Positions 27,367 to 52,424 of a DNA stretch of 59,967 nucleotides are shown here, piece after piece. The first letter of the stretch is position 1; each line of letters starts with the position of its first letter. A program made the translations under genes and the position numbers. This DNA is from a virus, in the IMG/VR virus record IMGVR_UViG_3300043410_001381, positions 1-59,967 of that record; one strand, 5' to 3'. The notes beneath the pieces were generated by a model. The model was not told the DNA's origin. It saw only the letters and a program-made list of their open reading frames with translations, and ran no database searches.

Positions 27367-28126
27367 TAATACTCGTTATTGTTTCGTCAAAGCTCTCTTG
27401 TTCAATCCTGTAGCCTACATCACGTCCGTATGTAATGTTGGTAATGTTTGGAACTAGCTGTATCATAAACTGCCCTTGATACACTGGTTCCAAGTCACGT
27501 TTAATATTGTGTACCACTTGGTGGAAATCAAATGGGTTGCTATCTTGCCATCCCTGACAGTCACGTACCATAATACAAACTTGTCCAGTTTTAGCGATGG
27601 CACGTTCAAACAATGCTCGGTGGCCTTTGTGCCAAGGTTGCCAACGTCCTAACATCTGTACCGTTTCTTTCTTGTTATCCCACTTGGGACGTCTACGGTT
27701 ATCCGCGATGTGGTCTGCAATAAATGGAGCCCACTTTTCAGCCCATTGCTCAGTTATGCGGAAATCGTAAATCTCTGGCTCTACAAACATCTTATTAGTA
27801 TCCTCGTATCGACCTTCATCGATACTATCTACCCAAATAGTCCAATCTGCTCTAAAGTTGTTACGCATCTCAACGAGTGGTGCAACGAAATCTACAATAC
27901 AATAATCAGTGTTGCTTGTATCTGCTAACTCACGCATACGATGGCTTTGTCTAATACGACCTTCACGACTAAAGTCCCAGTCATCGTAATGTCTACGAAC
28001 TTCATCAGCATTTAACCAACCAACAGTCTTACCGTGTTCTTCTAATTGCTTCTTTAATTGTTCTGCCAAATAGGTTTTACCAGCACCTGGTAAACCCATG
28101 ATTAAGATACGTTGTGCTTGCTTCAT
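27329..28126 (-). CDS. APS-kinase-like / nucleotidyltransferase fusion
   Basis: 265 residues, two domains. N-terminal kinase: P-loop MGLPGAGKTYLAEQL (about 10-24), WLNADEVRRH, DFSREGRIRQSHRMRELA, the pattern of adenylylsulfate kinase. C-terminal nucleotidyltransferase of the HxGH superfamily: MLGRWQPWHKGHRALFERA and the late ISATKIRKEM signature. An APS kinase would make PAPS, the donor used by sulfotransferases; the second domain could be a sulfurylase- or cytidylyltransferase-like enzyme. Three sulfotransferases lie within 7 kb. The exact substrate of each domain is inferred only. The start overlaps the ErpA-like gene. Confidence 0.78.
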   Translation of the reverse strand: MKQAQRILIMGLPGAGKTYLAEQLKKQLEEHGKTVGWLNADEVRRHYDDWDFSREGRIRQSHRMRELADTSNTDYCIVDFVAPLVEMRNNFRADWTIWVDSIDEGRYEDTNKMFVEPEIYDFRITEQWAEKWAPFIADHIADNRRRPKWDNKKETVQMLGRWQPWHKGHRALFERAIAKTGQVCIMVRDCQGWQDSNPFDFHQVVHNIKRDLEPVYQGQFMIQLVPNITNITYGRDVGYRIEQESFDETITSISATKIRKEMGLE

Positions 28127-28428
28127 ACGCTGAAGCTACTTCCACAACCGCAAGTGGTTTGTGCATTTGGATTCTTAATTACAAATTGGCTGCCCATTAG
28201 GTCTTCTACGTAGTCAACAACGGCTTCGTCTAGGTACATTAGGCTCATGCTGTCAACTAATACTTGACCAATCTCCATATCATCTTCGTTCTTTGTTTGC
28301 TCAAAGTCGAAAATGTATTGGAATCCACTACATCCACCACCCTGTACACTGATACGTAAATAGGGTTCATTGTTTTCTTCAAGACCCATTTTAATTTCTT
28401 TTACTGCATTTTCTGTGATAGTAATCAT
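28123..28428 (-). CDS. A-type Fe-S carrier (ErpA/IscA-like)
   Basis: 101 residues. ITENAVKEIKMGLEEN, then the three conserved cysteines in GGGCSGFQY and TCGCGSSFSV. A-type carriers deliver Fe-S clusters to apoproteins, including radical SAM enzymes. Start overlaps iscU's stop (4 nt). The insert FEQTKNEDD and MSLMYLDEAVVDYVE fit ErpA more than IscA. Confidence 0.9.
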   Translation of the reverse strand: MITITENAVKEIKMGLEENNEPYLRISVQGGGCSGFQYIFDFEQTKNEDDMEIGQVLVDSMSLMYLDEAVVDYVEDLMGSQFVIKNPNAQTTCGCGSSFSV

Positions 28429-28802
28429 TTGTGTTTTTCCTTGTAATCTGCCACGGCGGCTTTTATAGCATCTTCAGCAAGGATGCTACAATGGATTTTG
28501 ACTGGTGGCAATGCGAGTTCTTCAGCAATTTCTGAATTTTTAAGAGCTGCGGCTTGGTCCAACGTCTTGCCTTTAACCCATTCGGTAACAAGAGAGGACG
28601 ATGCGATTGCACTACCGCAACCGTACGTTTTAAATTTTGCATCTGTAATGATTCCGTCCTCAACTTTAATTTGTAGCTTCATTACATCACCACAAGCAGG
28701 CGCACCTACCATCCCAGTACCTACATCAGTATCGTTCTTATCAAACGAACCAACGTTCCTTGGATTCTCGTAATGATCGATAACTTTCTCTGAATATGCC
28801 AT
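28425..28802 (-). CDS. iscU: Fe-S cluster scaffold IscU
   Basis: 125 residues, complete. Cluster ligands C37 (APACGDV, with D39), C61 (TYGCGSAIASSS) and C104 (IHCSILAEDA), and the HscA-binding LPPVK at 98-101. It assembles [2Fe-2S]/[4Fe-4S] clusters from sulfur supplied by IscS. No IscS, HscA or HscB is seen here, though a DnaK (Hsp70) lies at the left edge of the window. Part of the order iscA-iscU-erpA-kinase-DUF2061. Confidence 0.95.
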   Translation of the reverse strand: MAYSEKVIDHYENPRNVGSFDKNDTDVGTGMVGAPACGDVMKLQIKVEDGIITDAKFKTYGCGSAIASSSLVTEWVKGKTLDQAAALKNSEIAEELALPPVKIHCSILAEDAIKAAVADYKEKHK

Positions 28803-28804
28803 AG

Positions 28805-29125
28805 TTATACCCTAAAACTTTCGCCACATCCGCAGCGATCACGTTCGTTTGGATTATTAAATTCAAACCCCTCGTTTAAACCATTTCTAACATAGTCCAT
28901 AGTTAATCCAGACAAATATGCTAAACTCTTTGGGTCAACGAAAATCGTGACGCCACTACTTGTGTATTCTACATCATCTGGGGTGGGATTGTCAACGTAT
29001 TCGAGTACATACGCTAGTCCGGAGCAACCTGTGGTTTTTACACCTACACGAATACCTAGCCCGTGACCTCTTCGCTGTAAAGTGGCGATCACTTTACTCG
29101 CAGCTTTTTCTGAAAGTGTTATCAT
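28805..29125 (-). CDS. iscA: A-type Fe-S carrier IscA-like
   Basis: 106 residues from ATG 29125, where AGGA is placed; the frame extends 10 codons upstream without a good start. [32 protein letters not shown], and [10 protein letters not shown] carry the three cysteines. With IscU and the ErpA-like protein it makes a nearly complete cluster-assembly set without a desulfurase. AATAAATA late octamer 37 nt upstream. Confidence 0.92.
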
Positions 29126-29161
29126 ATTGGGGATCCTACGGTTAATTAGTGCCAACGAGAA

Positions 29162-33753: not shown

Positions 33754-34226
33754 TTGCTCCACACCTCATTATCCCAACCTAGGCGCACAAAGCGAACACC
33801 AGTGCTTTGTAGTCCCTCCTTAACAGTTCTTAAGAATGTTTTCCTATCAGGTGGGTCGTACAGTGGTATTTCTAAGCCCTGCATTAAGATATGATCATCA
33901 TGAACAAGATGCCCACGACCGCAAATACTATAACATCCATTGTGACCCGCATTAACGAATACAATACTACCATGATGCTCAGACCAACCTTTGATATTAA
34001 GTTTAATTTGCTCATATGCTTTGTATATGACGAAACCCGCCACCCCGTAGATTACTACACCTTTACCCTGGCTTGCGAGTCCTGCTGCAATGTTAACCAT
34101 GTTAGTTTCTTGAACGCCACAGTTAATTACATTACCACCAGTGGGAAAACCCCACATGTCTGCATGTAACAAATACACGTCTGGATGGTTTAATTTAGTC
34201 AAGAACTTGTGTAGCGTGGCTCTCAT
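33750..34226 (-). CDS. Transketolase-like pyrimidine-binding subunit (C-terminal half)
   Basis: 158 residues from ATG 34226, which overlaps the upstream halogenase stop (ATGA). GVQETNMVNIAAGLASQGKG is the pyrimidine domain motif of transketolases, keeping the Glu that activates the thiamine ring; GVAGFVIYKAYEQIK and HVMxxx-like glycine-rich segments follow. No C-terminal transketolase domain. It should pair with 35533-36234, which holds the diphosphate-binding half. Together a two-subunit TPP enzyme for C2-unit transfer. Confidence 0.82.
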   Translation of the reverse strand: MRATLHKFLTKLNHPDVYLLHADMWGFPTGGNVINCGVQETNMVNIAAGLASQGKGVVIYGVAGFVIYKAYEQIKLNIKGWSEHHGSIVFVNAGHNGCYSICGRGHLVHDDHILMQGLEIPLYDPPDRKTFLRTVKEGLQSTGVRFVRLGWDNEVWSK

Positions 34227-35536
34227 GCTTCTTGTCCGTTGGTTGCATGAATGTGACGTAGCCATTCGCTGTACTTAACATTGCCCTTGCAGATTTTTAA
34301 CATCTCCATAGCACTTAATCTGTATTCCTTTTCTTCTTGTCCCATACCAGCTAAGATTAGATTCCAGCTGCGTGGTGGGAAAATACTATTGCGGTTGTGT
34401 TTTTCAATATCCAACGTTTTATAGTGATCCCAATATTCGTTGCTGTGCTTGGCATACTTGTAGAACGATAACACGAAGTCACACACTGCGTCAAATTCTC
34501 GGTTATACTCATCGTTATACTGCTGCTCAGATATCTGATCATCTAACAACTTGTCTAGTAGCTCTATACCATATGAGCTCAAATATAAACCAGTTGCTTC
34601 AATTGGTTCAATAAAATAAGAGCTTAGACCAATAGAGTAGATTGTTTTGTTGTCTTGGTGACGAACGTGTTTAATGTTACGTCCAGTAACCATCTTAATA
34701 TTCTGTATCTTACTCTGGTCAATTTTGTAGCCTAATGCTTCTTCAACGAAGTCAATGTACTCTTGTTTAACATCGTACTTGTCATCATAGACGTAACCAA
34801 ATGTTATGACATCCTTTAGTGGGTTAGACCAAATCCAGCCATACTTTGCTGCTGTAATTTTTGTGTAGACGAGTTGCTGTTTGTCTTTGTCGCTATACTC
34901 TGCACGATATACATACGCACGATTGTTTGGGATAAGATGTTCAATACTGTGGAAGTTCTCGGGCTGGCCCTTGTTGATCAATGTCTTGGCAAACCCAGTG
35001 GCATCAATGATGTGATCGTCCGCAATCTCACTTGCATCAGTGATAGTTCTACGCTGAATGCTCAAGTTTGGGAAAGTTACAAAAATAGTATCTAGGTATT
35101 TGCACAATTCACGAACATCAAAATTTGTGGCAAACTTTGGATAATCGTCATTTTCTACACCGTGATTTTCTGGATAACTTTCAAGAATGTCTAACGGTAG
35201 TTGCTCATGCTTTAGAAACCATTCCATAGACATACACGCTACGTCATTGCCACCAAACGGGTGGAAAAATGAATCACAAGTTGGGGACCAATTCTCAAAT
35301 TTGGCACCAAGTTTTAAGTTGGCATTACAATGCAGAATCATATCCTCTACGGATATTCCTAGTCTTCCTAGGAAACGCTGTACTTGTGGAACAGTTGCTT
35401 CGCCAACACCAATTGGTTTATTAACTTCTGGGTAAATCCATGTGACATGCATATCAGGGTATGTACGGCAGAAATATAGCACACTGAAATACCCCGATGT
35501 GCCACCACCTACCACTGTTATATTCTTTGGTCTCAT
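34223..35536 (-). CDS. Flavin-dependent halogenase-like (second copy)
   Basis: 437 residues. FAD loop VVGGGTSGYFSVLYF (8-22), GVGEATVPQVQRFL, candidate catalytic Lys75 in ANLKLGAKFENW, and FIEPIEATGLYL. The WxWxIP signature is changed to WIWSNPL, so activity could differ from tryptophan halogenases. Starts and stops overlap two halves of a transketolase (ATGA on both sides). About 27 kb from the other halogenase; the two are only distantly similar. Substrate unknown. Confidence 0.83.
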   Translation of the reverse strand: MRPKNITVVGGGTSGYFSVLYFCRTYPDMHVTWIYPEVNKPIGVGEATVPQVQRFLGRLGISVEDMILHCNANLKLGAKFENWSPTCDSFFHPFGGNDVACMSMEWFLKHEQLPLDILESYPENHGVENDDYPKFATNFDVRELCKYLDTIFVTFPNLSIQRRTITDASEIADDHIIDATGFAKTLINKGQPENFHSIEHLIPNNRAYVYRAEYSDKDKQQLVYTKITAAKYGWIWSNPLKDVITFGYVYDDKYDVKQEYIDFVEEALGYKIDQSKIQNIKMVTGRNIKHVRHQDNKTIYSIGLSSYFIEPIEATGLYLSSYGIELLDKLLDDQISEQQYNDEYNREFDAVCDFVLSFYKYAKHSNEYWDHYKTLDIEKHNRNSIFPPRSWNLILAGMGQEEKEYRLSAMEMLKICKGNVKYSEWLRHIHATNGQEA

Positions 35537-38463: not shown

Positions 38464-39059
38464 TTTAGCATGAACTTCTTGATATTCGCCAGTCCCTTGA
38501 GTTCATAGTTACCAGCGATACTGATACGATTTCTGTCAGTTGTGTTAGGATAGATACCATGTTGCACCCAACTTGGGAAACATACTAAATCACCAGTGCG
38601 GCCATCAAACTCAAAATAGCGATGATGTGGATCGTATCTACGTGATGTGTTTAATGGCTGAGTTTGTAGCAATAGCTCATTGGGGTCTGCAAAGAACAAG
38701 TTTCCTTCTTCTGCGCTATTCTTGTCAACATAAAACACAACTGTGACTGTTGCAGGACTATCGCTTTCCAAGTTATGTGGATACTCTGCTGCTCGTCCAT
38801 ACATATTTGCCCACATTTGACTCATTTCAATTGGGTATGTTGGATCGTAATCAAGAGCCAGCCAGTATTCAGCAACTGTGCGATTCATGTACTCCAACAA
38901 TGGTGCGAATATCTTCTCTTTGTGCAGTGTTCTAACAATGACGCCATCACGTTTTTGCTGTTCAAAATAGTCAGCAAGTCTTGTCATTACCTCGTCTCTG
39001 TTCCAGTCTACATCAATAGTTGTAGTGGAAATTTTAAGTGGAAAAATATCACGTATCAT
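38460..39059 (-). CDS. 2OG-Fe(II) oxygenase-like protein
   Basis: 199 residues from ATG 39059 (AGGAAA upstream). Motifs: MWANMYGRAAEYPHN, VTVVFYVDKNSAEEGNLFFADP, and GDLVCFPSWVQHGIYPN, then RISIAGNYEL. This is the layout of the putative 2OG-Fe(II) oxygenase family common in marine phages, with the distal His in QHGI and the Arg of RISIAGN binding 2-oxoglutarate. The proximal His is less clear (YPH). It could hydroxylate an unknown substrate. Overlaps the radical SAM gene stop. Confidence 0.7.
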   Translation of the reverse strand: MIRDIFPLKISTTTIDVDWNRDEVMTRLADYFEQQKRDGVIVRTLHKEKIFAPLLEYMNRTVAEYWLALDYDPTYPIEMSQMWANMYGRAAEYPHNLESDSPATVTVVFYVDKNSAEEGNLFFADPNELLLQTQPLNTSRRYDPHHRYFEFDGRTGDLVCFPSWVQHGIYPNTTDRNRISIAGNYELKGLANIKKFMLK

Positions 39060-40129
39060 TTTGGTTTCCTGTTCAAGTAAAAATCGCCGCCACAGTAATC
39101 CCATTTACAAATAGTGCCGGTTCTGTAAAGTACACCCAGTTTAATCAGTGCCTGTTTGTCAGTCACTAGATTAGTATATGGAACTTCTGGAGTACATGCC
39201 CTGATAAAGTTGGTCATGTGTATGCCACAATGGAATACATTGCCATCACCGTTGATTGTTATTGACTCTGTACCAGCAGCGCAATGCCATCCCCGTGCAT
39301 CAATGCCTTGCTTAAACAAGTCGTTAGTAGTGTAGATAGTACCGTCAATATCGTAACGCTGTTCTGTCTTGTTAAACTTCTTGTAGAACTCCATGTGCTT
39401 ATTAGCAATATCTTCAGGATACTCGTAGTGACAAAATCCGTAGATCATTTCACTATTAACGATTTTATCATACTCTAGATATTTTAAGATTCTTTCATAG
39501 AAATCATCTGAATCGATTTTGATTTCTCTACCAGCATAATACTTGTGATCACGCTCTACGTTTTCCAACATGATGTCGAAGTTATGTAGCTCTACTCCCT
39601 CGTCCATCAGGATTTGCCAGTTTCTATCAAAGTCTTTTAATTTGTTACGTACTAGCAATTCCAAGTAGTGGAAGCTCACGTTAAATGCATCACAGTGTTC
39701 AAGAATAGCTCGCAGCTTTTCTTCCTGGATGGTTAAGTTAGTCTGCATTTCGTTGTATGCACGAATGCCCAACTCTTCACCACGATCGTGGATGTATTTT
39801 AAAATGTCTACTACTCTAGGGTGGCGAGTTGCTTCACCACCGTGGTAGTAGAATAAAATTGATTTGAAGTTTTGCTTTTGACAGAATTCGAATAACTTGT
39901 CAATGCTAGTAATAATATCTTCGTAAGTATAGTGTTTGCCACTGTGCCAGTGACAGTAGTTGCATTTTAAATCGCAGGCTTCTGTAATTCGAAAGGTAAC
40001 TACGTATTCAGCATCTAATCCACTGTTGTCATTCAATACTAATGGAATGTAGTGCCGTTGTGGCTTAATTTGCCCAACTTGCATGTCTTCCTTTTTACGG
40101 ACGACTCTAATCCTTTCCCAATCTGCCAT
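39056..40129 (-). CDS. Radical SAM protein with C-terminal Cys-rich region (A)
   Basis: 357 residues. [4Fe-4S]/SAM motif C52-x3-C56-x2-C59 (EACDLKCNYCHW), GGEATRHP (SAM contact), and a SPASM-like C-terminus (WHCAAGTESITINGDGNVFH, CKWDYCGGDFYL). Such proteins act on peptides, proteins or sugars by radical chemistry. It lies between a 2OG oxygenase and a U32-like gene. Substrate unknown. Confidence 0.85.
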   Translation of the reverse strand: MADWERIRVVRKKEDMQVGQIKPQRHYIPLVLNDNSGLDAEYVVTFRITEACDLKCNYCHWHSGKHYTYEDIITSIDKLFEFCQKQNFKSILFYYHGGEATRHPRVVDILKYIHDRGEELGIRAYNEMQTNLTIQEEKLRAILEHCDAFNVSFHYLELLVRNKLKDFDRNWQILMDEGVELHNFDIMLENVERDHKYYAGREIKIDSDDFYERILKYLEYDKIVNSEMIYGFCHYEYPEDIANKHMEFYKKFNKTEQRYDIDGTIYTTNDLFKQGIDARGWHCAAGTESITINGDGNVFHCGIHMTNFIRACTPEVPYTNLVTDKQALIKLGVLYRTGTICKWDYCGGDFYLNRKPK

Positions 40130-40150
40130 TATCCTAATCCTAAATAGTTC

Positions 40151-40963
40151 TTATTTTAACATAGCTTCTCGGCTACGGTCAATGAATCTGGTTAACTCAC
40201 GATAGTACTCATCGTCTGCCATTTCACGCCCAGTTATTTTAAAACTAGACACACCCATATCAAGCAATCGTTTCATAGCATCTGGTTTAATGTCCATACA
40301 TTCGTATTTGCTATCCCTGCTAGGATCAAATTTTGGCAACCAACACTCTTCTACTTCTTTGCTATATGGTCTACCAGCAGTATTCTCATCGGCGATTGCC
40401 TTGAAATGTTGGTCCCAGTATTTGCAGCCCCAGATGCAAGTATCGTTTAACATTACTTCCCACTTTGAATGATCTAGCTCATTAGCACGTGGATCAAATA
40501 TGTGTTCAAATCTAGGAACAATCCAATCATACTTGCTCTCTAAATCCTTGTAGAAAGCAATATCGTTGTCTTGCATAGGTATGTTTGTTAAGCCCAACCC
40601 AGTAATACTGTAAATTAAATCATACTTGGGGAAGTTGTCACGCACGTATTGACGCAACTGGTCATTAACAATAATAAGTGCATTTCCTTCCCTGTGAAAC
40701 TTTTCTAGCAAGTCATTGCCAAGTGGATCAGTGAGGTCAATCTTATGATTGCTAAAAGTAAGTGCAATGCTTACACCCTTGTTATAATAGTATTCAATCA
40801 ACCCACTATTATAAAACACATCGCGGTTGATACGCCCGCCGTTCCAACGGCATTTGTTGATGCCATCGTATACAACAATTTGTGTATTATCAACTTTATT
40901 CAAACTTAAAAATTTGATAATTGGTAGCGATTTACTAAATGCGCCTGCTATTAAGTATCTCAT
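40151..40963 (-). CDS. U32-like TIM-barrel protein, copy 2
   Basis: 270 residues, paralogue of 37005-37883: CRWNGGRINRDVF, LIYSITGLG, VMLNDTCIWGCKYWDQHF (Cys pair) and SFKITGREMADDE. The Asn-Gly-Gly-Arg-Ile-Asn-Arg motif and the final K-x-x-GR match in both. Likely the same fold with a different role or partner. Located between two radical SAM genes. Confidence 0.5.
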   Translation of the reverse strand: MRYLIAGAFSKSLPIIKFLSLNKVDNTQIVVYDGINKCRWNGGRINRDVFYNSGLIEYYYNKGVSIALTFSNHKIDLTDPLGNDLLEKFHREGNALIIVNDQLRQYVRDNFPKYDLIYSITGLGLTNIPMQDNDIAFYKDLESKYDWIVPRFEHIFDPRANELDHSKWEVMLNDTCIWGCKYWDQHFKAIADENTAGRPYSKEVEECWLPKFDPSRDSKYECMDIKPDAMKRLLDMGVSSFKITGREMADDEYYRELTRFIDRSREAMLK

Positions 40964-41391
40964 TTCTTCTTCTTTAAAATATGATCTTCCATCGTTGATA
41001 ATACTAACCCACGTTTAATTGGGTTTAAATTTAATGTACCATAACGACTAAAATGCGTGTCTTTAATGCGGTCAAAGATATAATTTACTAATATCTTTTC
41101 CCTGTCCTTGTCTACACCAACGTATTTTATAATGTTATATGCTATTGCTAAATCACTGGTGTGTTGCTCAGTTTTATTCATAACATATTTTTCAAAGTCT
41201 TTATAGATGCGTTCTCTCTGACTTGCATGAAAATATGTTCTGTAATTTAATGCCATTTGTTTGAATACGTTGATGCCCATTTGCTTAACAATGTCGCGTC
41301 TATTTGCAACCAGATAATCAAACGATTCTTTGGCTGTTAAGTTACTTGTTTCAATGTAGTCTTCTAATAACTGGTTCACATTAAAAAGCAT
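40960..41391 (-). CDS. Hypothetical helical protein
   Basis: 143 residues from ATG 41391 (the frame opens at a TTG five codons earlier). All-alpha, basic, ending LSTMEDHILKKKK. No motif. Overlaps the radical SAM gene at both ends of the junction and the U32-like gene, so it belongs to the operon. Confidence 0.5.
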   Translation of the reverse strand: MLFNVNQLLEDYIETSNLTAKESFDYLVANRRDIVKQMGINVFKQMALNYRTYFHASQRERIYKDFEKYVMNKTEQHTSDLAIAYNIIKYVGVDKDREKILVNYIFDRIKDTHFSRYGTLNLNPIKRGLVLSTMEDHILKKKK

Positions 41392-42128
41392 TTGTTTTTT
41401 GGACAAATACCGTCAGTTTTAATTCTATAGCAACAATTATACAACTCTAAATTAGGACCGTAAAGGAAGTACTTGTCTTTGTATAGACATGGTTTACCTT
41501 TTGTGCTAAATGCAATGTTAGCCCATAGCTCTGACCTAGACTGTCCCAATCTCTTCTCATCTTCAAACTGTACAACTTTGTTAATGTTGGGGTCGTTTTT
41601 AAGTTGATTAAACTTGTGTAATATGTTGTCACTAACACCATCACCAAAGTCTGTAATAGGCGTCATGTATACATGCTTGCTACCAGTCATCTCTTTTACT
41701 TTGAAGTAATAGTAAAGCGCATTTTCTTGGCTATACATGATGTCGTATCTGCGTACATTGTTGTGTGGCGACTGAAAGACTTCGTTCATTTCGTCAATTG
41801 ACATCTCACTTGGGTGTATGCTTGCTTGCATTGTAAATGGCTGCTTAATACCCCTAATGACTTTTGCGCTGTAAGAGCTCAAGTTGGTCTGAATAACAAA
41901 TGGAACATTAAGCTCATTAAAACACTGTATGATATATTCAATATCTGGATGCACAAATGGCTCACCACCAAATACAAACACTTCTACGCCTGGGTACGTT
42001 TCCCCCAGCATCTTTACAAAGTTGCGTATAGTTTCTCTATCCAAGTTAGGATGGATACTTTTGTCCAAGTTAGTGCAATAGTTGCAACTATAATTGCACT
42101 TCATAGTTACTTCCCACTCAACTTGCAT
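41376..42128 (-). CDS. Radical SAM protein (B), compact
   Basis: 250 residues from ATG 42128 (GTG one codon earlier). Motif MKCNYSCNYC (C11, C15, C18), FGGEPFVHPD, and a short C-terminus with CCYRIKTDGICPKNKC that may hold an auxiliary cluster. Small compared with SPASM enzymes. Substrate unknown. Confidence 0.84.
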   Translation of the reverse strand: MQVEWEVTMKCNYSCNYCTNLDKSIHPNLDRETIRNFVKMLGETYPGVEVFVFGGEPFVHPDIEYIIQCFNELNVPFVIQTNLSSYSAKVIRGIKQPFTMQASIHPSEMSIDEMNEVFQSPHNNVRRYDIMYSQENALYYYFKVKEMTGSKHVYMTPITDFGDGVSDNILHKFNQLKNDPNINKVVQFEDEKRLGQSRSELWANIAFSTKGKPCLYKDKYFLYGPNLELYNCCYRIKTDGICPKNKCFLM

Positions 42129-43017
42129 CACGCACCTTTAATTGTTTTAGTAGTCCATCACAGTTGCATGAATTGTGTGGGCATGTCATTGGTACAGTGC
42201 TTGTAATGTCTTTAAAGAAGTCTGGATTCTCTAGTAAACTAGCTCTGCTGTTATCCAAGCAAAATTTAATAACTCTACCGTCAACATCAACTTCATAGTT
42301 GTTGTTATAGCAACTCCAGCCCTGGAAGTTAGTCAGCTTCTCTGAGAAGATTTCGTAATCATTCTTTAAATCTGTATCGTACACTAGTTCCTTTTCTCTA
42401 TCCTTTAAGAAAGCAAAGTATTCCCAGAAGTCTTTGCGATAGTGGAATAGTGTATGTACGTTCTTGCCGTAGATGAAATGCGGGTGTACTTTTACACCCA
42501 TTGCATCACACTTCTCAATCATGTCTTTAATTAATGGCCAATACTGCTTGCCGTGGTGTAGCATTACGTTGACCTTTACTTGCCAACCTTTATCATGTAC
42601 GTGTTTTAGGTTACGTAAGAACTTATTGACATCAGTACAATCAGCTGGATGGTAACTGAACAAGAATGCAAGACCTTTGTATTCAGGATGACTAGTTAAA
42701 TCGCGCTCTGCGTTAGTAACCACATATACTTTATTAAAGTTATCCATTGTTACCAAGTTGTCTAGCACATAGAAATAATGCGGGCTTAGTGTTGGCTCTC
42801 CACCCAATAGCCCTAGATTAAACGACAAGCTGGATCTACGCAATGATTCAATGACACCGTCTACCACATCACGCTTGCTTAACTTACCCCACTTCTCACC
42901 GTATTCGTTGCGAGCGTAACAGTATGAGCAGTTGAGTTGGCAAACCGTGAGCAAGTCCCAGTGTATATTAATATGATCTGGATCTTGATGTATATGGTGC
43001 TGTCTGCTGTAGTTCAT
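42118..43017 (-). CDS. Radical SAM protein (C)
   Basis: 299 residues. VCQLNCSYCYAR (C26, C30, C33), GLLGGEPTLSPHY, and a C-terminal group of cysteines (WSCYNNNYEVDVDGRVIKFC, CPHNSCNCDG). The partial repeat of the pattern in 43014-44582's C-terminal half shows that they are related. Start overlaps the fusion gene's stop (ATGA). Confidence 0.84.
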   Translation of the reverse strand: MNYSRQHHIHQDPDHINIHWDLLTVCQLNCSYCYARNEYGEKWGKLSKRDVVDGVIESLRRSSLSFNLGLLGGEPTLSPHYFYVLDNLVTMDNFNKVYVVTNAERDLTSHPEYKGLAFLFSYHPADCTDVNKFLRNLKHVHDKGWQVKVNVMLHHGKQYWPLIKDMIEKCDAMGVKVHPHFIYGKNVHTLFHYRKDFWEYFAFLKDREKELVYDTDLKNDYEIFSEKLTNFQGWSCYNNNYEVDVDGRVIKFCLDNSRASLLENPDFFKDITSTVPMTCPHNSCNCDGLLKQLKVRDAS

Positions 43018-44582
43018 TTTGTTTTGTAGAAGTTAATCAACCGTTTACTTGGGCACTGCTCTTGAGGGCATCGCTCAGTGACTACTAAATTCTGATGATT
43101 CAGCTGCAATGGCACTCGTCTACTAGTACACGTATTTTCTATATTACCATTCATTTGAATTTGGTAAGATTTTGGTGTACAGTTATAGCCCTTTAGCTTA
43201 TTTAATCCTGCAGATTCTATCTCGTAGTCTTTCAGATTCTCTATTGTTCCGTCAGTGTACACAACTGGAATATCTTTGAAGAAGTCGCGACCAGAACGAT
43301 TTTTACCAGTAGCTGACAGCAGTTCACCAAACTCTTTAAAAAAGTTATCGCCGTAGTTTGGTTTATAGTGCTTTGTGCGTGAAAGCAAACATGGTTTGTA
43401 TTTGACACCATGCTCACGTAATACGCTGATTAGCAATTTAGTCTGTTCCCAGAACTCAGCTCTATCTGATATAGTTACGTGTACTGAAAAATTCAAAGTA
43501 TCTTTTAGCGCAATGCATTTCTCAGTAAACTTGTCTGTAGCATATTCAGGGTGGTATGATGCAAATAGTGTAATCTTATTAGAACCAATTTGCACTAGCG
43601 GCTCATAAAAACTCACTGGTCTAGAATTATTTGTGAATATAGATATATCCTGCGAATTATTCATTGCACACAACTCTGATACAATCTCTACAATGTTAGG
43701 ATGCAGCGTTGGCTCACCCCCAGTAATACACATATTAAACTGATACGGCACTTGCTTTAATTTAGCCAGTGTAAACTTATATTGTGTAGTATGATTGTCT
43801 GTCTTAAAGTCAGTTGATAAGTCGTCAATTACTGGGCAATATGTACACTTGTAATTGCACCAGTTAGTTAATGGCCAATCGAAGAATATAGTATCATCAG
43901 ATTGGTCTCCCATGCTTTGTACTACTTTGTACTTTCGCATAAAATCCATTGACTTGGTCACTTCCACGGATGGATCAGTGTCGCTAAATGACACATTATC
44001 ACCACCATCTTTAGTTTGGTAGAAGAAAACTTTCTTGTGTGTCTGAATGCTATTACATCTACGCAACGAAAACATCATTAAGTTGATGTCGTTGTGTACG
44101 TTGTTGTCCATGGGAAAGTCAAACCCAGCGATAATATCACGTCTAAAGATAAACTGTGAAAGCTGGAGGTGCTCTAGATTCACTTGTTTGTAGAATTCGT
44201 CACGATCGTAATACAGCTGATCAATGTATTGCTTCAAGTACTCCATTGGATTCACGTCATACTTGGGATAGTAGTTACCTACAATCATGTCAGCTTGACG
44301 ATCCATTTCTAGGAAACCATTAGCCAAGTAATCGTCATCTTCTAAGAAGTAAACGTAGTAGCCAGATGCCCTGTTTAGTAGTGACTGATAAACTTGACTC
44401 ATGTTGTCAAATTTGTCGTAGTAATACGTTACTTGTGGGTGTGGAATCTCAGTAATATCGTTACTGTCATTGTTGACAATAATCTCCACGTCAGCAGGCA
44501 AATCCTTTAACACAGAATTTAAGCATCGTGTAAAAAGGTGTGGTCTGTTATGCGTTGGTATTAGTATGCTTAGTCCTGGCAT
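43014..44582 (-). CDS. GT2 glycosyltransferase - radical SAM fusion
   Basis: 522 residues, two domains. Residues 1-220: GT2 fold, SILIPTHNRPHLFTRCLNSV at the start, YVYFLEDDDYLANGFLEMD with the EDDD metal motif at 81-84. Residues 230-522: radical SAM, NWCNYKCTYCPV (C242, C246, C249), MCITGGEPTLHPN, and C-terminal cysteines GYNCTPKSYQIQMNGNIENTC and CPQEQCPS. A fusion of a sugar-transfer and a radical enzyme is rare. It suggests that one protein adds a sugar and modifies the same acceptor, or that one chain both activates and transfers it (inference). Confidence 0.85.
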   Translation of the reverse strand: MPGLSILIPTHNRPHLFTRCLNSVLKDLPADVEIIVNNDSNDITEIPHPQVTYYYDKFDNMSQVYQSLLNRASGYYVYFLEDDDYLANGFLEMDRQADMIVGNYYPKYDVNPMEYLKQYIDQLYYDRDEFYKQVNLEHLQLSQFIFRRDIIAGFDFPMDNNVHNDINLMMFSLRRCNSIQTHKKVFFYQTKDGGDNVSFSDTDPSVEVTKSMDFMRKYKVVQSMGDQSDDTIFFDWPLTNWCNYKCTYCPVIDDLSTDFKTDNHTTQYKFTLAKLKQVPYQFNMCITGGEPTLHPNIVEIVSELCAMNNSQDISIFTNNSRPVSFYEPLVQIGSNKITLFASYHPEYATDKFTEKCIALKDTLNFSVHVTISDRAEFWEQTKLLISVLREHGVKYKPCLLSRTKHYKPNYGDNFFKEFGELLSATGKNRSGRDFFKDIPVVYTDGTIENLKDYEIESAGLNKLKGYNCTPKSYQIQMNGNIENTCTSRRVPLQLNHQNLVVTERCPQEQCPSKRLINFYKTK

Positions 44583-45640
44583 CGATAAAAGTTCACTTGT
44601 TTAATTTTATCACCAGGTTCTGGAAATACAGGTGTTGAACCAGCAACTTCCTTTTCAACACCGTCACAGATGTAAAAGTGTTTGCATGTTAGACACGTTA
44701 ATTGCTTTTGGTAGAATCTATTACGATATGAATCACATGCATTGTATGCATTTTGTACTTTCTCTTCGTACGTGTATTGTTTGTCTACGTCTAAAACGTA
44801 GGTGTACATTTCTTTGTTCCAGTCACGCACGTCATAAATGTTCTGGAACGCACCAGATACATATTTCTCGTACCCTTTCATATAGCAGTAAGGTGTGTAG
44901 CGTACATTGATTTTAATCGCAGGATTCATCTTGTCTACACATGCCTTGATGGCATCTGTCATGTCTTTGTAACTGGCATTCTCAAACTCAATTACGTTGA
45001 AATCTCCCCAGTAGTTTAAACTGATGAAGTTTGCCTCTTCAGGCATAATTGAGTTGATTAACTCTGCGTGTATTGGTAACTCATGGTAGTTTCTGTAATA
45101 CACTGTTGTATTAGTGCGTACAATCATGCCTAGCTCTTGAGCATTGGCAATGCCCTTTAAGATGCGATCAAACGAGCCCTTGCGTCCCGTGATAGCATCG
45201 TGTACTTCTGCTGTGGCACCATGCAAGCTGAATAGTATCTCACGGAGGCCATGCTCGTATGATTCACGAGCAAAGTCCATATTGGCAAACTTGCCACCGT
45301 GGCTTAGGCAACTAATGCTAGTGAACTTGTCACGACAGTAGTCTAGTATTTTAAACCAGTCTGGGCTTACGCTACTTTCACCACCACTTAGATCAACTTC
45401 AGTAATTCCGTATTTTACCAAATAGTCAATACGTTCCTTGACAGTTTCCCATGGTGTTTTAACATCCAACTGATCCTTGTAATAACAGAACTCGCAATCG
45501 TAGTTACAAAACGTACCAGTGTCTAATCTAGCTCTGTTGCTTTTGGGTGTAACTAAATCAAGCTCAAGCCCAGCCACACTCATCTCATTGATTGACGTTT
45601 GTGCTTTGTTTCTAAATTGTACTGGGACTGCTTTAGTCAC
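44570..45640 (-). CDS. Radical SAM protein (D) with C-terminal Cys motif
   Basis: 356 residues, probably starting at GTG 45640 (GGAA upstream). TGTFCNYDCEFCYYK (C45, C49, C52), EVDLSGGESSVSPDWF, LFSLHGATAEVHDAITG and CLTCKHFYICDGVEKE at the end. The SLHGATxxxHD section and end resemble MoaA/HemN-like and anSME-like proteins. Overlaps both neighbours. Confidence 0.85.
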   Translation of the reverse strand: MTKAVPVQFRNKAQTSINEMSVAGLELDLVTPKSNRARLDTGTFCNYDCEFCYYKDQLDVKTPWETVKERIDYLVKYGITEVDLSGGESSVSPDWFKILDYCRDKFTSISCLSHGGKFANMDFARESYEHGLREILFSLHGATAEVHDAITGRKGSFDRILKGIANAQELGMIVRTNTTVYYRNYHELPIHAELINSIMPEEANFISLNYWGDFNVIEFENASYKDMTDAIKACVDKMNPAIKINVRYTPYCYMKGYEKYVSGAFQNIYDVRDWNKEMYTYVLDVDKQYTYEEKVQNAYNACDSYRNRFYQKQLTCLTCKHFYICDGVEKEVAGSTPVFPEPGDKIKQVNFYRCQD

Positions 45641-47549: not shown

Positions 47550-47948
47550 TTATCTCCTAAGATACGATTCCACGATTGAATTAACCGCAGCTTCATCATT
47601 TAGGTTACTTAACATACGTAACTTGTTAATGATATCACTGTACTCAGTTTTCTGAGATTCAATTACTTTGATACTGTCTCTTAATTCAATATATTTTTCT
47701 AAGTCATTGATTAAACTTTCATCACCTGACTCGATTATCTTGATGTAACCTTCTTCTTTGGTATCATCAGTGATAATAATTCCCTTGTTGAGAAATTTGT
47801 TATTGATCATGATATAAGAAACAAAATCAACTAATTTAAAAATTAGTAAATCGTCACCCATAACTCCACGTGCTTTAGTCTTAACTGCCATGGCAGCTTT
47901 GCCTGCATATGAACTTGCGTCAATACCTTCAATCTCTTTATAATCCAT
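47550..47948 (-). CDS. Hypothetical protein
   Basis: 132 residues: GIDASSYAGKAAMAVKTKAR, DDLLIFKLVDFVSYIMINNK, then acidic helices. No family. Two nucleotides after the Cys-repeat protein, so co-transcribed with it; may be an assembly partner. Confidence 0.5.
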   Translation of the reverse strand: MDYKEIEGIDASSYAGKAAMAVKTKARGVMGDDLLIFKLVDFVSYIMINNKFLNKGIIITDDTKEEGYIKIIESGDESLINDLEKYIELRDSIKVIESQKTEYSDIINKLRMLSNLNDEAAVNSIVESYLRR

Positions 47949-47949
47949 T

Positions 47950-48648
47950 TTATGCCTCTGTCATGTTAACTGGTAATTGTGAATAGTCTACATAGTAGAA
48001 ACCATTCTTATCGAGTCCAAGTGCGGACTCATACTTGGTGCCAATTAACTCTTGAGCTAGTACACCAATGTATGTTTTTGCCTTATTCCAGATATATGAA
48101 TATGAATACACATTCAATCCATCTCTGGTTTCGACTAGTGTAATGTTTGCCTTCAATCTTTCATCGCTGTAGTTACAGTTACAAGTACATGAGTAGTTAC
48201 AGTTACAAGTACAGTAGTTACAATTACATGTGCAATAGTTACAGTTACAAGTACATACTTGACCAGCAGAAACGATTGACGAAATTAGGTTATTGATTGC
48301 GCTCGCAGTAATCAATGCACCTGCACCAACATCAGGTGGAACAGCAGGGGCTCCTACTTGTGGGTATGTGATAACATCAACAGTACCATTATTATTGTAA
48401 GCCTGTGTTGTTCCTGGACCTGCAACTGATAACAATGATGTAAATGTGTTATAGTCAAGGTGGTTAATTGGTGATGATAATGAGTATGGGTAGCTTGATG
48501 AACCGCGTCTAACTCGTTCAGAATTAATGTTATTCAATAATTCGTTGAACTTGTTAGCATTGATCATTCCGCCACTGCTTACTGCACCAATACTGTATGT
48601 TACAGCATTTGATGAGTTTGACCCATATACCCCTGTTCCTAATGCCAT
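47950..48648 (-). CDS. Fibre-like protein with four CTCNCNY repeats and S74-like chaperone end
   Basis: 232 residues. N-terminal beta-rich, fibre-like part (1-130; ALGTGVYGSNSSNAVTYSIG), then four copies of CTCNCNY (residues 132-160, 12 of the window's densest cysteines), then SDERLKANITLVETRDGLNV (161 on), the SDxRLKxNI signature of intramolecular chaperone (S74-type) domains that trimerise fibres and then cleave off. AAGGAG ribosome site. The radical SAM genes flanking it suggest that the Cys/Asn repeats might be modified, or bind a metal or cluster (inference). Confidence 0.8.
   Translation of the reverse strand: MALGTGVYGSNSSNAVTYSIGAVSSGGMINANKFNELLNNINSERVRRGSSSYPYSLSSPINHLDYNTFTSLLSVAGPGTTQAYNNNGTVDVITYPQVGAPAVPPDVGAGALITASAINNLISSIVSAGQVCTCNCNYCTCNCNYCTCNCNYSCTCNCNYSDERLKANITLVETRDGLNVYSYSYIWNKAKTYIGVLAQELIGTKYESALGLDKNGFYYVDYSQLPVNMTEA
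48169..48255 (-). repeat. Tandem Cys-rich repeat CTCNCNY x4
   Basis: A tandem 21-nt unit (one copy lengthened by a Ser codon) encoding CTCNCNY four times. Codon choices differ slightly between copies (tgc/tgt, aac/aat), so it is a selected protein repeat rather than a fresh DNA duplication. Confidence 0.9.
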
Positions 48649-48657
48649 GTTCGCTCC

Positions 48658-49026
48658 TTATATTGACTTAGATAAAAAGTCTAAATCACTCTTTGCTTTA
48701 TTTTGTGCAACAAACTTTTCATAGTCATCTAGATCAGATGTGATGAAATCCAGAGTATTTTGGTCTGGTGCTTTGTCGCTTTCAGTGTTATCGCCCTGCA
48801 TAGCTGCCATGACTAAGTCTTTGATTGAAACATTCAAAACTTTGGAAACTATCTCTAAGTGTTCTGAAATGTCAATGTCTTTTCTTGCACCGTTTTTAGA
48901 TACAGTGTCAATTAAGTTCAATGATAATCCGAACCCCTCTACTAAAATAGCTGCCATACCTGGATCTTCTGATTCGATCTCTTTGATGGTTTGTGCTATT
49001 AAGTTTAGTTTATCGATTACACTCAT
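48658..49026 (-). CDS. Hypothetical helical protein
   Basis: 122 residues: NLIAQTIKEIESEDPGMAAI, FGLSLNLIDTVSKNG, DLDDYEKFVAQNKAKSDLDF. All-alpha, acidic. No family. Sits between the Cys-repeat gene and a radical SAM gene with short gaps, so it could be a chaperone or binding partner for the repeat protein. Confidence 0.5.
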   Translation of the reverse strand: MSVIDKLNLIAQTIKEIESEDPGMAAILVEGFGLSLNLIDTVSKNGARKDIDISEHLEIVSKVLNVSIKDLVMAAMQGDNTESDKAPDQNTLDFITSDLDDYEKFVAQNKAKSDLDFLSKSI

Positions 49027-49028
49027 TT

Positions 49029-49904
49029 TTATTCCTTTTCTTTAAAATCGTGAAATTTGGGGGCATTTTCATAGTTACCATACGTAGTGACATTGCCTTC
49101 GTCAGTAAAGTACGTTTTTAATTCTTTGCGTTCCCCGCATCCGTTGCACATATCGCAAAATAATTCGCATATAGGTGCTGATATAGCTTTATTTATCCAG
49201 TCTTTTCTGAACAGATTTTTTGCTGATTCCAGCTTTTCCATGTCACTGGTTTCAAGGGTGTCCCAAGCTACTGAAGTGATTACCCTTGTTGGCTTAAACG
49301 CCTTAATAATCATTGTAATGTCTTCGTAGTAATTGTCAATGTTCAGCTTCTGTATAGTATATCGTATTCTATACTTTAGACCATTTTTTAACAAGTTCTT
49401 AAACACTTGAAACATCAGTGGAGTTGAGTCTTTACCATTGTGTGTTACACGCTCAGTATTACCAACTCCATCAAAACTTATATCAATACTCAGGAAACCT
49501 CTCTGATAGAAGAAGTTGTTCTTAGTTTGATCAATAAAGTCTTGCTTTAAGTACCTGATACCATTTGTTGTTAAGTTGAAGTGGATATTCTTCTTTTTAC
49601 TGTATGCGTACTCCATACAATAGACTACGTTATCCCACTCCATTGTTGCTTCACCACCAAACAATACGATTAGTGTCTGCGAATCAGGAGATTCTCGTTC
49701 AATAATGGTATCAATACTCTTGCGAATATCTTCCTGCGTCATTATCTGCGGTGGGCGTCCAGGTAAGTCCTCATAGCAGTACGTACATGCTAGGTTACAT
49801 TTATTTGTAAAGTAAATTACGTTGACTCCTGAGCCAGCAGCAACTGGCTTGTCAGTTTTATCACCGACAAAGAAATCCATAAATGTGCCTGAAATTGATG
49901 TCAT
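49029..49904 (-). CDS. Radical SAM protein (E) with short Cys-rich end
   Basis: 291 residues. TNKCNLACTYCYED (C36, C40, C43), LIVLFGGEATMEW, LTTNGIRYLKQ, SIDISFDG, and CELFCDMCNGCGERKE, a shortened SPASM-like cluster site. Nearest radical SAM gene to the Cys-repeat protein. Start overlaps the upstream small gene (ATGA). Confidence 0.86.
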   Translation of the reverse strand: MTSISGTFMDFFVGDKTDKPVAAGSGVNVIYFTNKCNLACTYCYEDLPGRPPQIMTQEDIRKSIDTIIERESPDSQTLIVLFGGEATMEWDNVVYCMEYAYSKKKNIHFNLTTNGIRYLKQDFIDQTKNNFFYQRGFLSIDISFDGVGNTERVTHNGKDSTPLMFQVFKNLLKNGLKYRIRYTIQKLNIDNYYEDITMIIKAFKPTRVITSVAWDTLETSDMEKLESAKNLFRKDWINKAISAPICELFCDMCNGCGERKELKTYFTDEGNVTTYGNYENAPKFHDFKEKE

Positions 49905-50218
49905 TGGATAATCATCTCATGCGAGTTTTTGTATCTATTCTCACGTGGGCGTGATTTTGCTTCCCTAATAACGTGTGACATATTTTCCAAGAAACGTGGG
50001 TAATCATACTTGTACTTAAACAAGTGACCGCGCTCGTCTAATTTAAAATTAACATACTCGTTATCAACTTTAGCTTTGCCCTTACGTGCTTCTTCAATTT
50101 GCTGTTGAAGCTCGTCCGTAGTTAACACACGATCGCTAATATGCTCTGCTGGAGCATACTCTACTTTAATTGGGTGAGCAATAATGCTCTTAAATGATTT
50201 CTTTTTTAGTTCCGACAT
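49901..50218 (-). CDS. Small hypothetical protein
   Basis: 105 residues, basic: KKKSFKSIIAHPIKVEYAPA, DELQQQIEEARKGKAKVDNE, HLFKYKYDYPRFLENMSHVI. No family. Lies between two radical SAM genes and overlaps both; it could be a substrate-binding partner, similar in idea to peptide-binding proteins of RiPP pathways, but lacks the winged-helix RRE pattern I would expect. Confidence 0.5.
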   Translation of the reverse strand: MSELKKKSFKSIIAHPIKVEYAPAEHISDRVLTTDELQQQIEEARKGKAKVDNEYVNFKLDERGHLFKYKYDYPRFLENMSHVIREAKSRPRENRYKNSHEMIIQ

Positions 50219-51330
50219 TCTACACCCTCGCTTTCAACACCTACATTCTCAATGTAGTGCAAAATTAGATCCTGGAATACAGGAACATCACGGCATTCTT
50301 CTACCACACGCATTGCTTGCTCGTTTGTAATGTGGAAGAGTTCACAAATACTGTCCAGTGGCTTGTTGTCATTCATAACTTGGCTGTACGTACAACCTGC
50401 ATTACAAACTTGCTTTAAGTCACATGGTTGGCACTTGTCATAGTTCTCTGGCTTGAACATTTCTTGGTAGTACTTGAAGTCATACTCACTGTCCATCTTC
50501 ATGATCTTCTTACTTGCAAATCGAGCACATGGGTAAAACTCACCACTGCTCATTAATACACCACCGTTAGTACCAGCAAAGCATCCAAATGGTCGCTTGC
50601 CTTTAACAAGCCCATAGAGAATGTCTAAGATAGCTAGACGCAAGAAACCAACACTACATGGTATGCCTGCTTTAAGTTTGGCAATGTAGGTATCTGTCAA
50701 GCGAATAAGCTCTTTGCGATACTCAATGATATCATCACGTGTCCACACGTCATCACGCACAAGGCTAAAGTCAGGATGCTCAATGCCCCAGCTCAACAGG
50801 AACTCAAAGTTCTCTGTCATGTCTTTTACGTTACCAGGCCAAATCATTACTTTGCAACCGTTAGTTAAACCTGTAATGATATCCTTCTTGTAGTTGTACA
50901 TATCAAGGATACCATCAAATAACTCACCAGTCTCTGGGTTTGTATTCTCTAGTAATGGTAGTAATGGACGAGTCTCGTTACTGCTCATACCGTCAAACGA
51001 CCAAGACACGCCAACCCCGTTCTCTCTTAGATACTTGGCTTTCTCTTCATCAATCATTGTAAGGTTGGTAATAACACCAATACCCTTACACTTGGGATCT
51101 GCGCGAAGGATAGGAACAGCGTGTCTAATCAAGTCAAAGTTAAGCAGTGGCTCCCCACCAAAGAAGCTCACGTGGTACTCAGCATCACCACTTCGGTCCA
51201 TTAAGTTGTACAACTCTGGCAATGCATTATCAAATACTTCAGGGGTCATCCATGTTGGACGATTTGCCACGTAACAGTACGGGCACCCTAAGTTACATTT
51301 TTCTGTTACGCTTACTTCTAGAGTGAACAT
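50206..51330 (-). CDS. Radical SAM/SPASM protein (F), anSME-like
   Basis: 374 residues. TEKCNLGCPYCYVA (C12, C16, C19), VSFFGGEPLLNFD, VSWSFDGMSSNETR, then a SPASM C-terminus: CFAGTNGGVLMSSGEFYPCA and CQPCDLKQVCNAGCTYS, with a final C. SPASM proteins modify peptides or proteins (sulfatase maturation, sactipeptides, PqqE). Overlaps the next radical SAM gene by 13 nt. Confidence 0.9.
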   Translation of the reverse strand: MFTLEVSVTEKCNLGCPYCYVANRPTWMTPEVFDNALPELYNLMDRSGDAEYHVSFFGGEPLLNFDLIRHAVPILRADPKCKGIGVITNLTMIDEEKAKYLRENGVGVSWSFDGMSSNETRPLLPLLENTNPETGELFDGILDMYNYKKDIITGLTNGCKVMIWPGNVKDMTENFEFLLSWGIEHPDFSLVRDDVWTRDDIIEYRKELIRLTDTYIAKLKAGIPCSVGFLRLAILDILYGLVKGKRPFGCFAGTNGGVLMSSGEFYPCARFASKKIMKMDSEYDFKYYQEMFKPENYDKCQPCDLKQVCNAGCTYSQVMNDNKPLDSICELFHITNEQAMRVVEECRDVPVFQDLILHYIENVGVESEGVECRN

Positions 51331-52424
51331 TGTTCCGCCTCAAATTTAATAACTGGCTTCTTGTATGACTTTAATGCAACACGCAATGCATGGTGAACAA
51401 CCTCATTGGTTTTAAACACTTTACACACTTGCCAGTTGGATGTGTGGTCACTCCACTTTTCCAAATACGTTTCTTTCTCTGATTTCTCATAAGTGGCAGC
51501 ATTACACTTCATGCAGAATTGGCTGTCACAGTTTAAGCAATCAAGTGGTTGATTCTTTAATGCGCCCTTGTACATTTCAGTACGCTCTTGTACGAGCTTG
51601 TCTAAATCAGCTTCTTTAAAGATGTTGCCCATAACGTGGGCATGGCTTTCTTTATACATACAGCCGTGACATGGACTAATATCACCGTTTAAGTCAACGC
51701 TGATGTAGTTGATGCCTGCTGCACACAATGCACGACTTTGTTGGAACCATCCAAACTTCTCTGGTGGTAAACCATTCTTGTAGATGTACTTGGCAATCTT
51801 AGTTAAGCCTTCTTTTAACACTTCTAGTCTAGGCATAAACTCTTCTTCAGTTAACTGACTATACATATCTGGTGTTGGGAAATAGTTATCGTCCATTTCA
51901 ATAACATCTAAGAACGCTTCGTAAATTTTATCAAAGTGTTCAGCTGTTAATACAGACTTCATTCTGACATTAAGTCCAGCTTTCTTGGCAGCGATGTAGT
52001 TGCTCTTGACTAGACTAGAGCTAGGATTTCCTGCTTTGTCGATACGTGTGATGTCGTTTACTGGCTTACCATCATAGCTTACTTGGATGCTCAAACGACC
52101 TGGCATTGCTTCATGGAATGCAACTAAGTCGTGCATGTACTTCTTTAAGTACACACCGTTTGTATAGAAGAAGAAACTGTAGTTAGGATTGTCTTTAAAC
52201 TTATCCATAACACCACGGCAGAATTCGTAGTTAACGAATGGCTCACCGCCCCAAAAGTAGATATCACGTTTTGGATCGTCGAACTTAGTCATGAACTCGT
52301 CAATGTTATCAAGCGTAACTTCTGTGTTTTCTTCGTATGCTGTTGATAAGCCACATTCAAAGCCTTCTGAGCAATATGTACATGCTAAATTACATGTACT
52401 CGTTACGTTTAAATCAATTACCAT
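51318..52424 (-). CDS. Radical SAM/SPASM protein (G)
   Basis: 368 residues. TSTCNLACTYCSEG (C11, C15, C18), IYFWGGEPFVNYEF, SIQVSYDGK, and SPASM cysteines CAAGINYISVDLNGDISPCH, CLNCDSQFCMKCNAAT. Closest relative here is F (50206-51330). AAGGA ribosome site. Follows the UDP-sugar dehydrogenase gene by 8 nt. Peptide or protein substrate likely. Confidence 0.9.
   Translation of the reverse strand: MVIDLNVTSTCNLACTYCSEGFECGLSTAYEENTEVTLDNIDEFMTKFDDPKRDIYFWGGEPFVNYEFCRGVMDKFKDNPNYSFFFYTNGVYLKKYMHDLVAFHEAMPGRLSIQVSYDGKPVNDITRIDKAGNPSSSLVKSNYIAAKKAGLNVRMKSVLTAEHFDKIYEAFLDVIEMDDNYFPTPDMYSQLTEEEFMPRLEVLKEGLTKIAKYIYKNGLPPEKFGWFQQSRALCAAGINYISVDLNGDISPCHGCMYKESHAHVMGNIFKEADLDKLVQERTEMYKGALKNQPLDCLNCDSQFCMKCNAATYEKSEKETYLEKWSDHTSNWQVCKVFKTNEVVHHALRVALKSYKKPVIKFEAEQCSL

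Follow-up and report, generated by a model that had tools for sequence, protein, structure and literature searches.

What purpose does a row of cysteines serve in a fibre-like viral protein that is encoded beside several radical SAM enzymes? The question is raised by a viral record of 59,967 bp, analysed here in full and hereafter called the window, which encodes eight radical SAM proteins. Three of them (rSAM-A, rSAM-B and rSAM-C) lie on the minus strand together with two small genes in the order, reading downstream, rSAM-A, rSAM-B, s105, rSAM-C and s122, followed by the fibre-like gene and by d132. Open reading frames, Pfam matches and cysteine motifs confirm the preliminary description of three radical SAM genes (two of them SPASM) and two small genes upstream of the fibre-like gene on the same strand. 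Five more radical SAM genes are found downstream in the window among glycosyltransferase and sugar genes. A radical SAM/sugar gene cluster at 39056-45640 includes a family 2 glycosyltransferase fused to a radical SAM domain (43014-44582), and elsewhere this one phage genome fragment encodes two tryptophan-halogenase-type flavoproteins (7772-9238 and 34223-35536; Pfam E 1e-105 and 2e-60).

The fibre-like protein and its cysteine array

The fibre-like protein (232 aa; 47950-48648, minus strand) consists of a variable N-terminal part with a conserved E..RR motif, a cysteine array and an S74 chaperone domain. The array (residues 132-160; 48169-48255, minus strand) holds all 12 cysteines of the protein in four CTCNCNY units that start at residues 132, 139, 146 and 154, the last being preceded by a single Ser. 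It is immediately followed by SDERLK (residues 161-166), the SDxRLK-type start of a Peptidase_S74 intramolecular chaperone (PF13884; residues 161-232; 47953-48168, minus strand), which Pfam recognizes over residues 161-202 with 25.7 bits against a cut-off of 22. The initial description of four tandem units with 12 cysteines directly before an S74 domain was therefore exact. The AF2 model of the protein is confident for the S74 domain, which is well modelled, and for the N-terminal helices; the array has a pLDDT of about 30 and no confident structure, and a Foldseek search of the model against the PDB gave no meaningful match (best E 1.2). Since nucleotide differences among the four units are silent only, the protein sequence is what is conserved. 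The downstream gene d132 (132 aa; 47550-47948, minus strand) is conserved in near and distant lineages (88 loci) and corresponds to phrog_25260, a family with no assigned function.

A scan of IMG/VR, confirmed by tblastn, provided 40 loci. The array is more than a chance feature, because its 12 cysteine columns are invariant in 20 aligned homologues with overall identities to the window protein of 36-54%, and because 47 distinct proteins carry arrays of at least three units, with unit numbers ranging from 3 to 28. In the unit statistics of these 47 proteins, for which the search pattern dictated the cysteine positions, Thr predominates at position 2, position 4 is Asn, Asp or Gln, position 6 is Asn (88%), position 7 is Tyr, Phe or His in about 97% of units, and a one-residue linker is optional. 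The most distant enzymes (25-30% identity) adjoin arrays of different pattern, either with a period of 6 (CICNSDCSCNNVCSCHNDCGCNY), again followed by S74, or built of CHSN/CHSD tetrads; the array DCICNSDCSCNNVCSCHNDCGCNY, also of a different pattern, is likewise followed by SDERLK and S74. Cysteine is the only residue class common to all array types. Some array proteins (L025:9896-10966, L024:10615-10992 and L094:3119-3775) open with spaced C..H or C.GH motifs (e.g., MACNGHVSSTGCHGHTLTGCVGH) that resemble an additional cysteine/histidine site.

A tblastn search with the window fibre against phage records returned S74 matches only, probably because the array was masked as low complexity. The pattern CNYCxCxCNY occurred in 15 stretches of bacterial genomes, with real arrays only in L112, a phage-like contig in a MAG, and in L117, a Clostridium prophage; the other stretches were rejected as isolated matches without an array gene.

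The radical SAM enzymes and their retention with the array

The three enzymes, all on the minus strand, are rSAM-A (368 aa; 51318-52424), rSAM-B (374 aa; 50206-51330) and rSAM-C (291 aa; 49029-49904). Each matches Pfam Radical_SAM over the cut-off and carries a CxxxCxxC motif that is invariant in alignments, which places them in the superfamily. When SPASM proteins are defined by the seven-cysteine C-terminal motif CX9-15GX4C-CX2CX5CX3C-C, rSAM-B qualifies with the full motif at exact spacing (C250, G263, C268, C300, C303, C309, C313 and C329 are conserved), and rSAM-A qualifies with a Pfam SPASM match over the cut-off and a slightly altered spacing, CX2CX4CX2C. The C-terminal cluster motif of rSAM-C has four cysteines only. 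The best NCBIfam model for all three is the ranthipeptide maturase PapB (NF047865), followed by nif11, SCIFF, QhpD or CcpM-type peptide maturases. Scores against PapB of 77 bits (rSAM-A), 127 bits (rSAM-B) and 85 bits (rSAM-C) compare with a curated cut-off of 340, and NCBIfam scores so far under the cut-offs place the enzymes outside those families. Each profile has PDB 5wgg (7e-27 for rSAM-A and 3e-35 for rSAM-B), the SCIFF maturase CteB, which forms thioethers, as its best solved relative; the matches also include structures of anaerobic sulfatase maturases. Judged by these profile comparisons, the closest named relatives of the three enzymes are thioether-forming maturases (PapB, SCIFF/CteB and QhpD), and we class the proposed system with radical SAM peptide or protein maturation, outside the ranthipeptide families tested.

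We identified neither a leader peptide nor a recognition domain for the cassette. rSAM-A and rSAM-B begin at the radical SAM motif and consequently have no fused N-terminal RRE. The small conserved partner s105 (105 aa; 49901-50218, minus strand), found at 61 loci, usually lies between rSAM-B and rSAM-C and carries the motif KVDxxYV...HLFxY. It has no family match, and as a candidate recognition element it gained no support from its AF2 model, which is of low confidence, contains helices only and is not recognizably an RRE. The second small conserved partner, s122 (122 aa; 48658-49026, minus strand), was found at 50 loci, 47 of which show the order rSAM-C, s122, array gene.

Radical SAM proteins (Pfam Radical_SAM) are encoded in each of the 32 records that contain array loci, and homologues of rSAM-A, rSAM-B and rSAM-C adjoin the array gene in nearly all loci. 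Because many of these records are near-duplicates, we also searched in the opposite direction, starting from the enzymes. An rSAM-B profile found 76 loci, which together with the earlier loci formed 35 clusters at 70% identity; 14 of these are biased, since they include loci that the array search had supplied, while 21 were found via rSAM-B only. Within the 21, a cysteine array stands beside the enzymes in 17 (the automatic count plus L174, L181 and L187, which were read by eye) and elsewhere in the genome in one (the Campylobacter phages), and the remaining three (L151, L179 and L182) are cut by contig ends. Gene orders differ between lineages (A-B-s-C-s122-array, B-s-C-A-array, A-C-B-array and array-A-B-C), which indicates that the set was kept together through rearrangement. 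Some lineages yielded no rSAM-C homologue, and in distant phages rSAM-A and rSAM-B track the array without the sugar-side enzymes. Note that the clusters have a common ancestry and do not represent independent origins, so that the argument is one of retention and not of repeated invention.

The Campylobacter phages of the genus Firehammervirus encode an array protein of 534 aa with 6 units. Of 50,697 records, 15 contain this protein, all of them Campylobacter records; rSAM-A turns up in exactly these 15, and rSAM-B has the same distribution among phages. In CPt10 the array lies at about 160 kb, rSAM-A at 164 kb, rSAM-B at 18 kb and a clear rSAM-C homologue at 84.7 kb (203 bits, next best 79). 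Across five copies from Campylobacter phages, differences in the array are either silent or amount to exactly two units (6 or 4), while the rest of the protein varies. Public annotations in NC_019507 (CP21_105), OP654737 (WX1_0021) and MK408758 (CP20) name the array protein a putative N-acetylneuraminate pyruvate lyase and the rSAM-B/A homologues an arylsulfatase regulator and a transcriptional regulatory protein; these names appear to be wrong. A simpler arrangement is found in Clostridium rectalis and a second clostridial genome, where the gene after a tail-module gene encodes a SPASM radical SAM protein (45% identical between the two genomes) and the next one a small Cys-rich protein, which in Clostridium rectalis contains CxCNCNY units. 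These prophage tail modules are a single-enzyme version of the pairing of array and enzyme.

There are exceptions. On five fragments from two lineages (G033-G037, 13-60 kb), none of them a complete genome, an array is present and a radical SAM gene is absent. The array gene sits at the contig end in two of them, and loci with similar array proteins (L145, L149 and L152) have rSAM-A and rSAM-B right after the array; G033 (L059) represents a separate lineage, with the array gene among tail-fibre-like genes that include an S74 protein. The preliminary description had named homologues with this repeat in phages devoid of radical SAM genes as the observation that would count against it, and these incomplete fragments provide no clear case. 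On the enzyme side, L161 has rSAM-B and rSAM-A with no array found in the following 5 kb, and L134 retains the whole cassette with a 284-bp deletion through the array relative to L136, possibly an assembly collapse. Overall, the converse search, the rearranged gene orders and the co-retention at separate Campylobacter loci support the functional link between array and SPASM genes that had been suggested from the window, and the survey for CTCNCNY-type repeats beside radical SAM genes that had been called for revealed such pairs in many distantly related viruses.

Truncated and split S74 domains

S74 domains are known to free themselves through a cut just ahead of the Ser in their first motif. 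The expected cut in the window fibre falls right after the last Tyr of the array. In L023, L038 and L120 the fibre ORF ends precisely with CNCNY, and in L187 with CGCNY, these four ends coinciding with the expected cut site, and the ORF of L015 stops one residue later. About 20 other fibre ORFs extend just to SDxRLKxxIxYL. In seven of them the remaining S74 sequence is carried by the next ORF, of 84-103 aa (L031:10489-10788, L032:10394-10705, L011:10561-10842, L035:10563-10838, L040:10504-10800, L155:9700-9954 and L174:12838-13110). These downstream ORFs match the Pfam model over the cut-off, from positions 16-20 to 53-57 of 58, and carry a coiled-coil-like end. L006 and L010 have three or four array genes followed by one S74-remainder ORF with a weak Pfam match (16 bits in L010). 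Readthrough was considered for the truncated domains and rejected, since the remainder lies in different frames across loci and has its own start. The arrangement suggests that the split S74 chaperone may act in trans.

A proposed maturation route for the fibre tip

We propose that these genes probably constitute a phage cassette for the maturation of a virion fibre tip, in which the array is cross-linked by the radical SAM enzymes, most likely through thioethers. A small fibre protein would be made with a C-terminal CxC[N/D]CNY array followed by the S74 chaperone. The SPASM enzymes rSAM-A and rSAM-B, of which the array is very probably the substrate, would modify it in the reducing cytoplasm before or during fibre assembly, with rSAM-C taking part where present and s105 and s122 as putative helpers. 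Cysteine sulfurs would be joined to carbons of nearby Asn/Asp (positions 4 and 6) or Thr, resulting in a row of small thioether rings. The S74 domain would trimerize the fibre and then cut itself off before the Ser of SDxRLK, and the mature fibre would end in the hardened array, presumably at the tail tip. Clusters for the enzymes could be supplied by Fe-S assembly genes that Pfam identifies in the window, two A-type carriers and a NifU_N/IscU-like scaffold (28123-29155, minus strand, not adjacent to the cassette). Together with an A-type carrier that is inserted within the cassette of L004, they are consistent with a demand for many clusters.

As to the chemistry, analogy modestly favours a thioether product. 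PapB joins cysteine sulfur to carbons of Asp or Glu in CX3D repeats and accepts spacings of 0-6 (PMC9413430). Given this precedent, the nearness of every cysteine to Asn or Asp and the tolerated Asp/Asn alternation at position 4, Cys-to-Asn/Asp thioethers are our first guess, held with moderate confidence. The most extended form of the proposal, that distantly related phages possess a multiply thioether-cross-linked fibre tip with its own multi-enzyme SPASM cassette and an S74 domain that is often split and acting in trans, seems to us slightly better than an even bet.

The enzymes might also modify the array without forming thioethers, by C-C cyclophanes at the conserved aromatic, by epimerization or by Cys oxidation. 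The near-constancy of Tyr, Phe or His at position 7 would suit such a course, several SPASM chemistries exist, and anaerobic sulfatase maturase structures were matched. However, the best named relatives of all three enzymes form thioethers, and cysteine is the one residue class that all array types have in common, which makes this course unlikely. We give still less credence to a metal or Fe-S tip for which the radical SAM genes would be indirect helpers or chance neighbours. The preliminary description had offered a metal or cluster site beside a modified segment, and CxCxC spacing with Asn, Asp or His nearby, the N-terminal C..H motifs of some array proteins and the Fe-S assembly genes, one of them inside a cassette, would all fit it. 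Yet chance neighbourhood fails to explain retention through rearrangement and at unlinked Campylobacter phage loci, and a metal or cluster site is the less likely of the two. A disulfide-rich or plain redox-active tip, with the radical SAM genes belonging to the adjacent surface-sugar cassette as the five further radical SAM genes among the sugar genes might suggest, is highly improbable, since the enzymes that track the array are rSAM-A and rSAM-B, alone in distant phages, and not the sugar-side ones, and since fibres fold in the reducing cytoplasm.

If enzymatic thioether cross-linking of the array is correct, radical SAM peptide maturation has been put to use in the structural engineering of viruses, and a chemistry so far mainly encountered in modified peptides and a few bacterial enzymes cross-links part of a virus particle. 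This would represent a new kind of covalent hardening for virus particles, would explain what the puzzlingly numerous radical SAM genes of some phages are for, and would provide enzymes for cross-linking long, repetitive runs of cysteines within whole proteins. Enzymes of this kind and S74 fibres are already known; their combination, the array and the multi-enzyme cassette are without description in the openly accessible journal literature that we searched, which yielded neither CTCNCNY nor an earlier description of virions modified by radical SAM enzymes.

Four known systems invite comparison. CP220 and CPt10 (Firehammervirus) resemble the window in having the array (CPT_0180/CPt10_1891) and homologues of rSAM-A, rSAM-B and rSAM-C. 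Timms et al. 2010 (PMC2853527) noted both a 21-bp repeat inside this gene and an unusual abundance of radical SAM genes, but regarded the former as a DNA feature and the latter as probably metabolic, and drew no link between them. PapB (freyrasin) and CteB, the best profile matches of the three enzymes, share with the cassette a SPASM radical SAM enzyme and, on our reading, Cys-rich substrates. However, their substrate is a leader-core peptide, whereas the putative substrate of the cassette is a phage structural protein with an S74 domain, and the cassette differs further in its up to three enzymes, in the lack of an N-terminal RRE on rSAM-A and rSAM-B, and in scores far under the family cut-offs. 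QhpD, the quinohemoprotein amine dehydrogenase maturase, is likewise a radical SAM/SPASM enzyme and installs Cys-Asp/Glu thioethers in a functional protein subunit. It is among the best NCBIfam matches of the cassette enzymes and resembles the proposed system in targeting a protein subunit, but its target belongs to a bacterial enzyme and is neither part of a virion nor equipped with a CNCNY array. Finally, the array fibre resembles S74 (endosialidase-type) fibres and tailspikes, in which a C-terminal SDxRLK chaperone domain follows the fibre shaft; in contrast to them, a short cysteine array replaces the shaft, and in many lineages the S74 domain is split between two genes.
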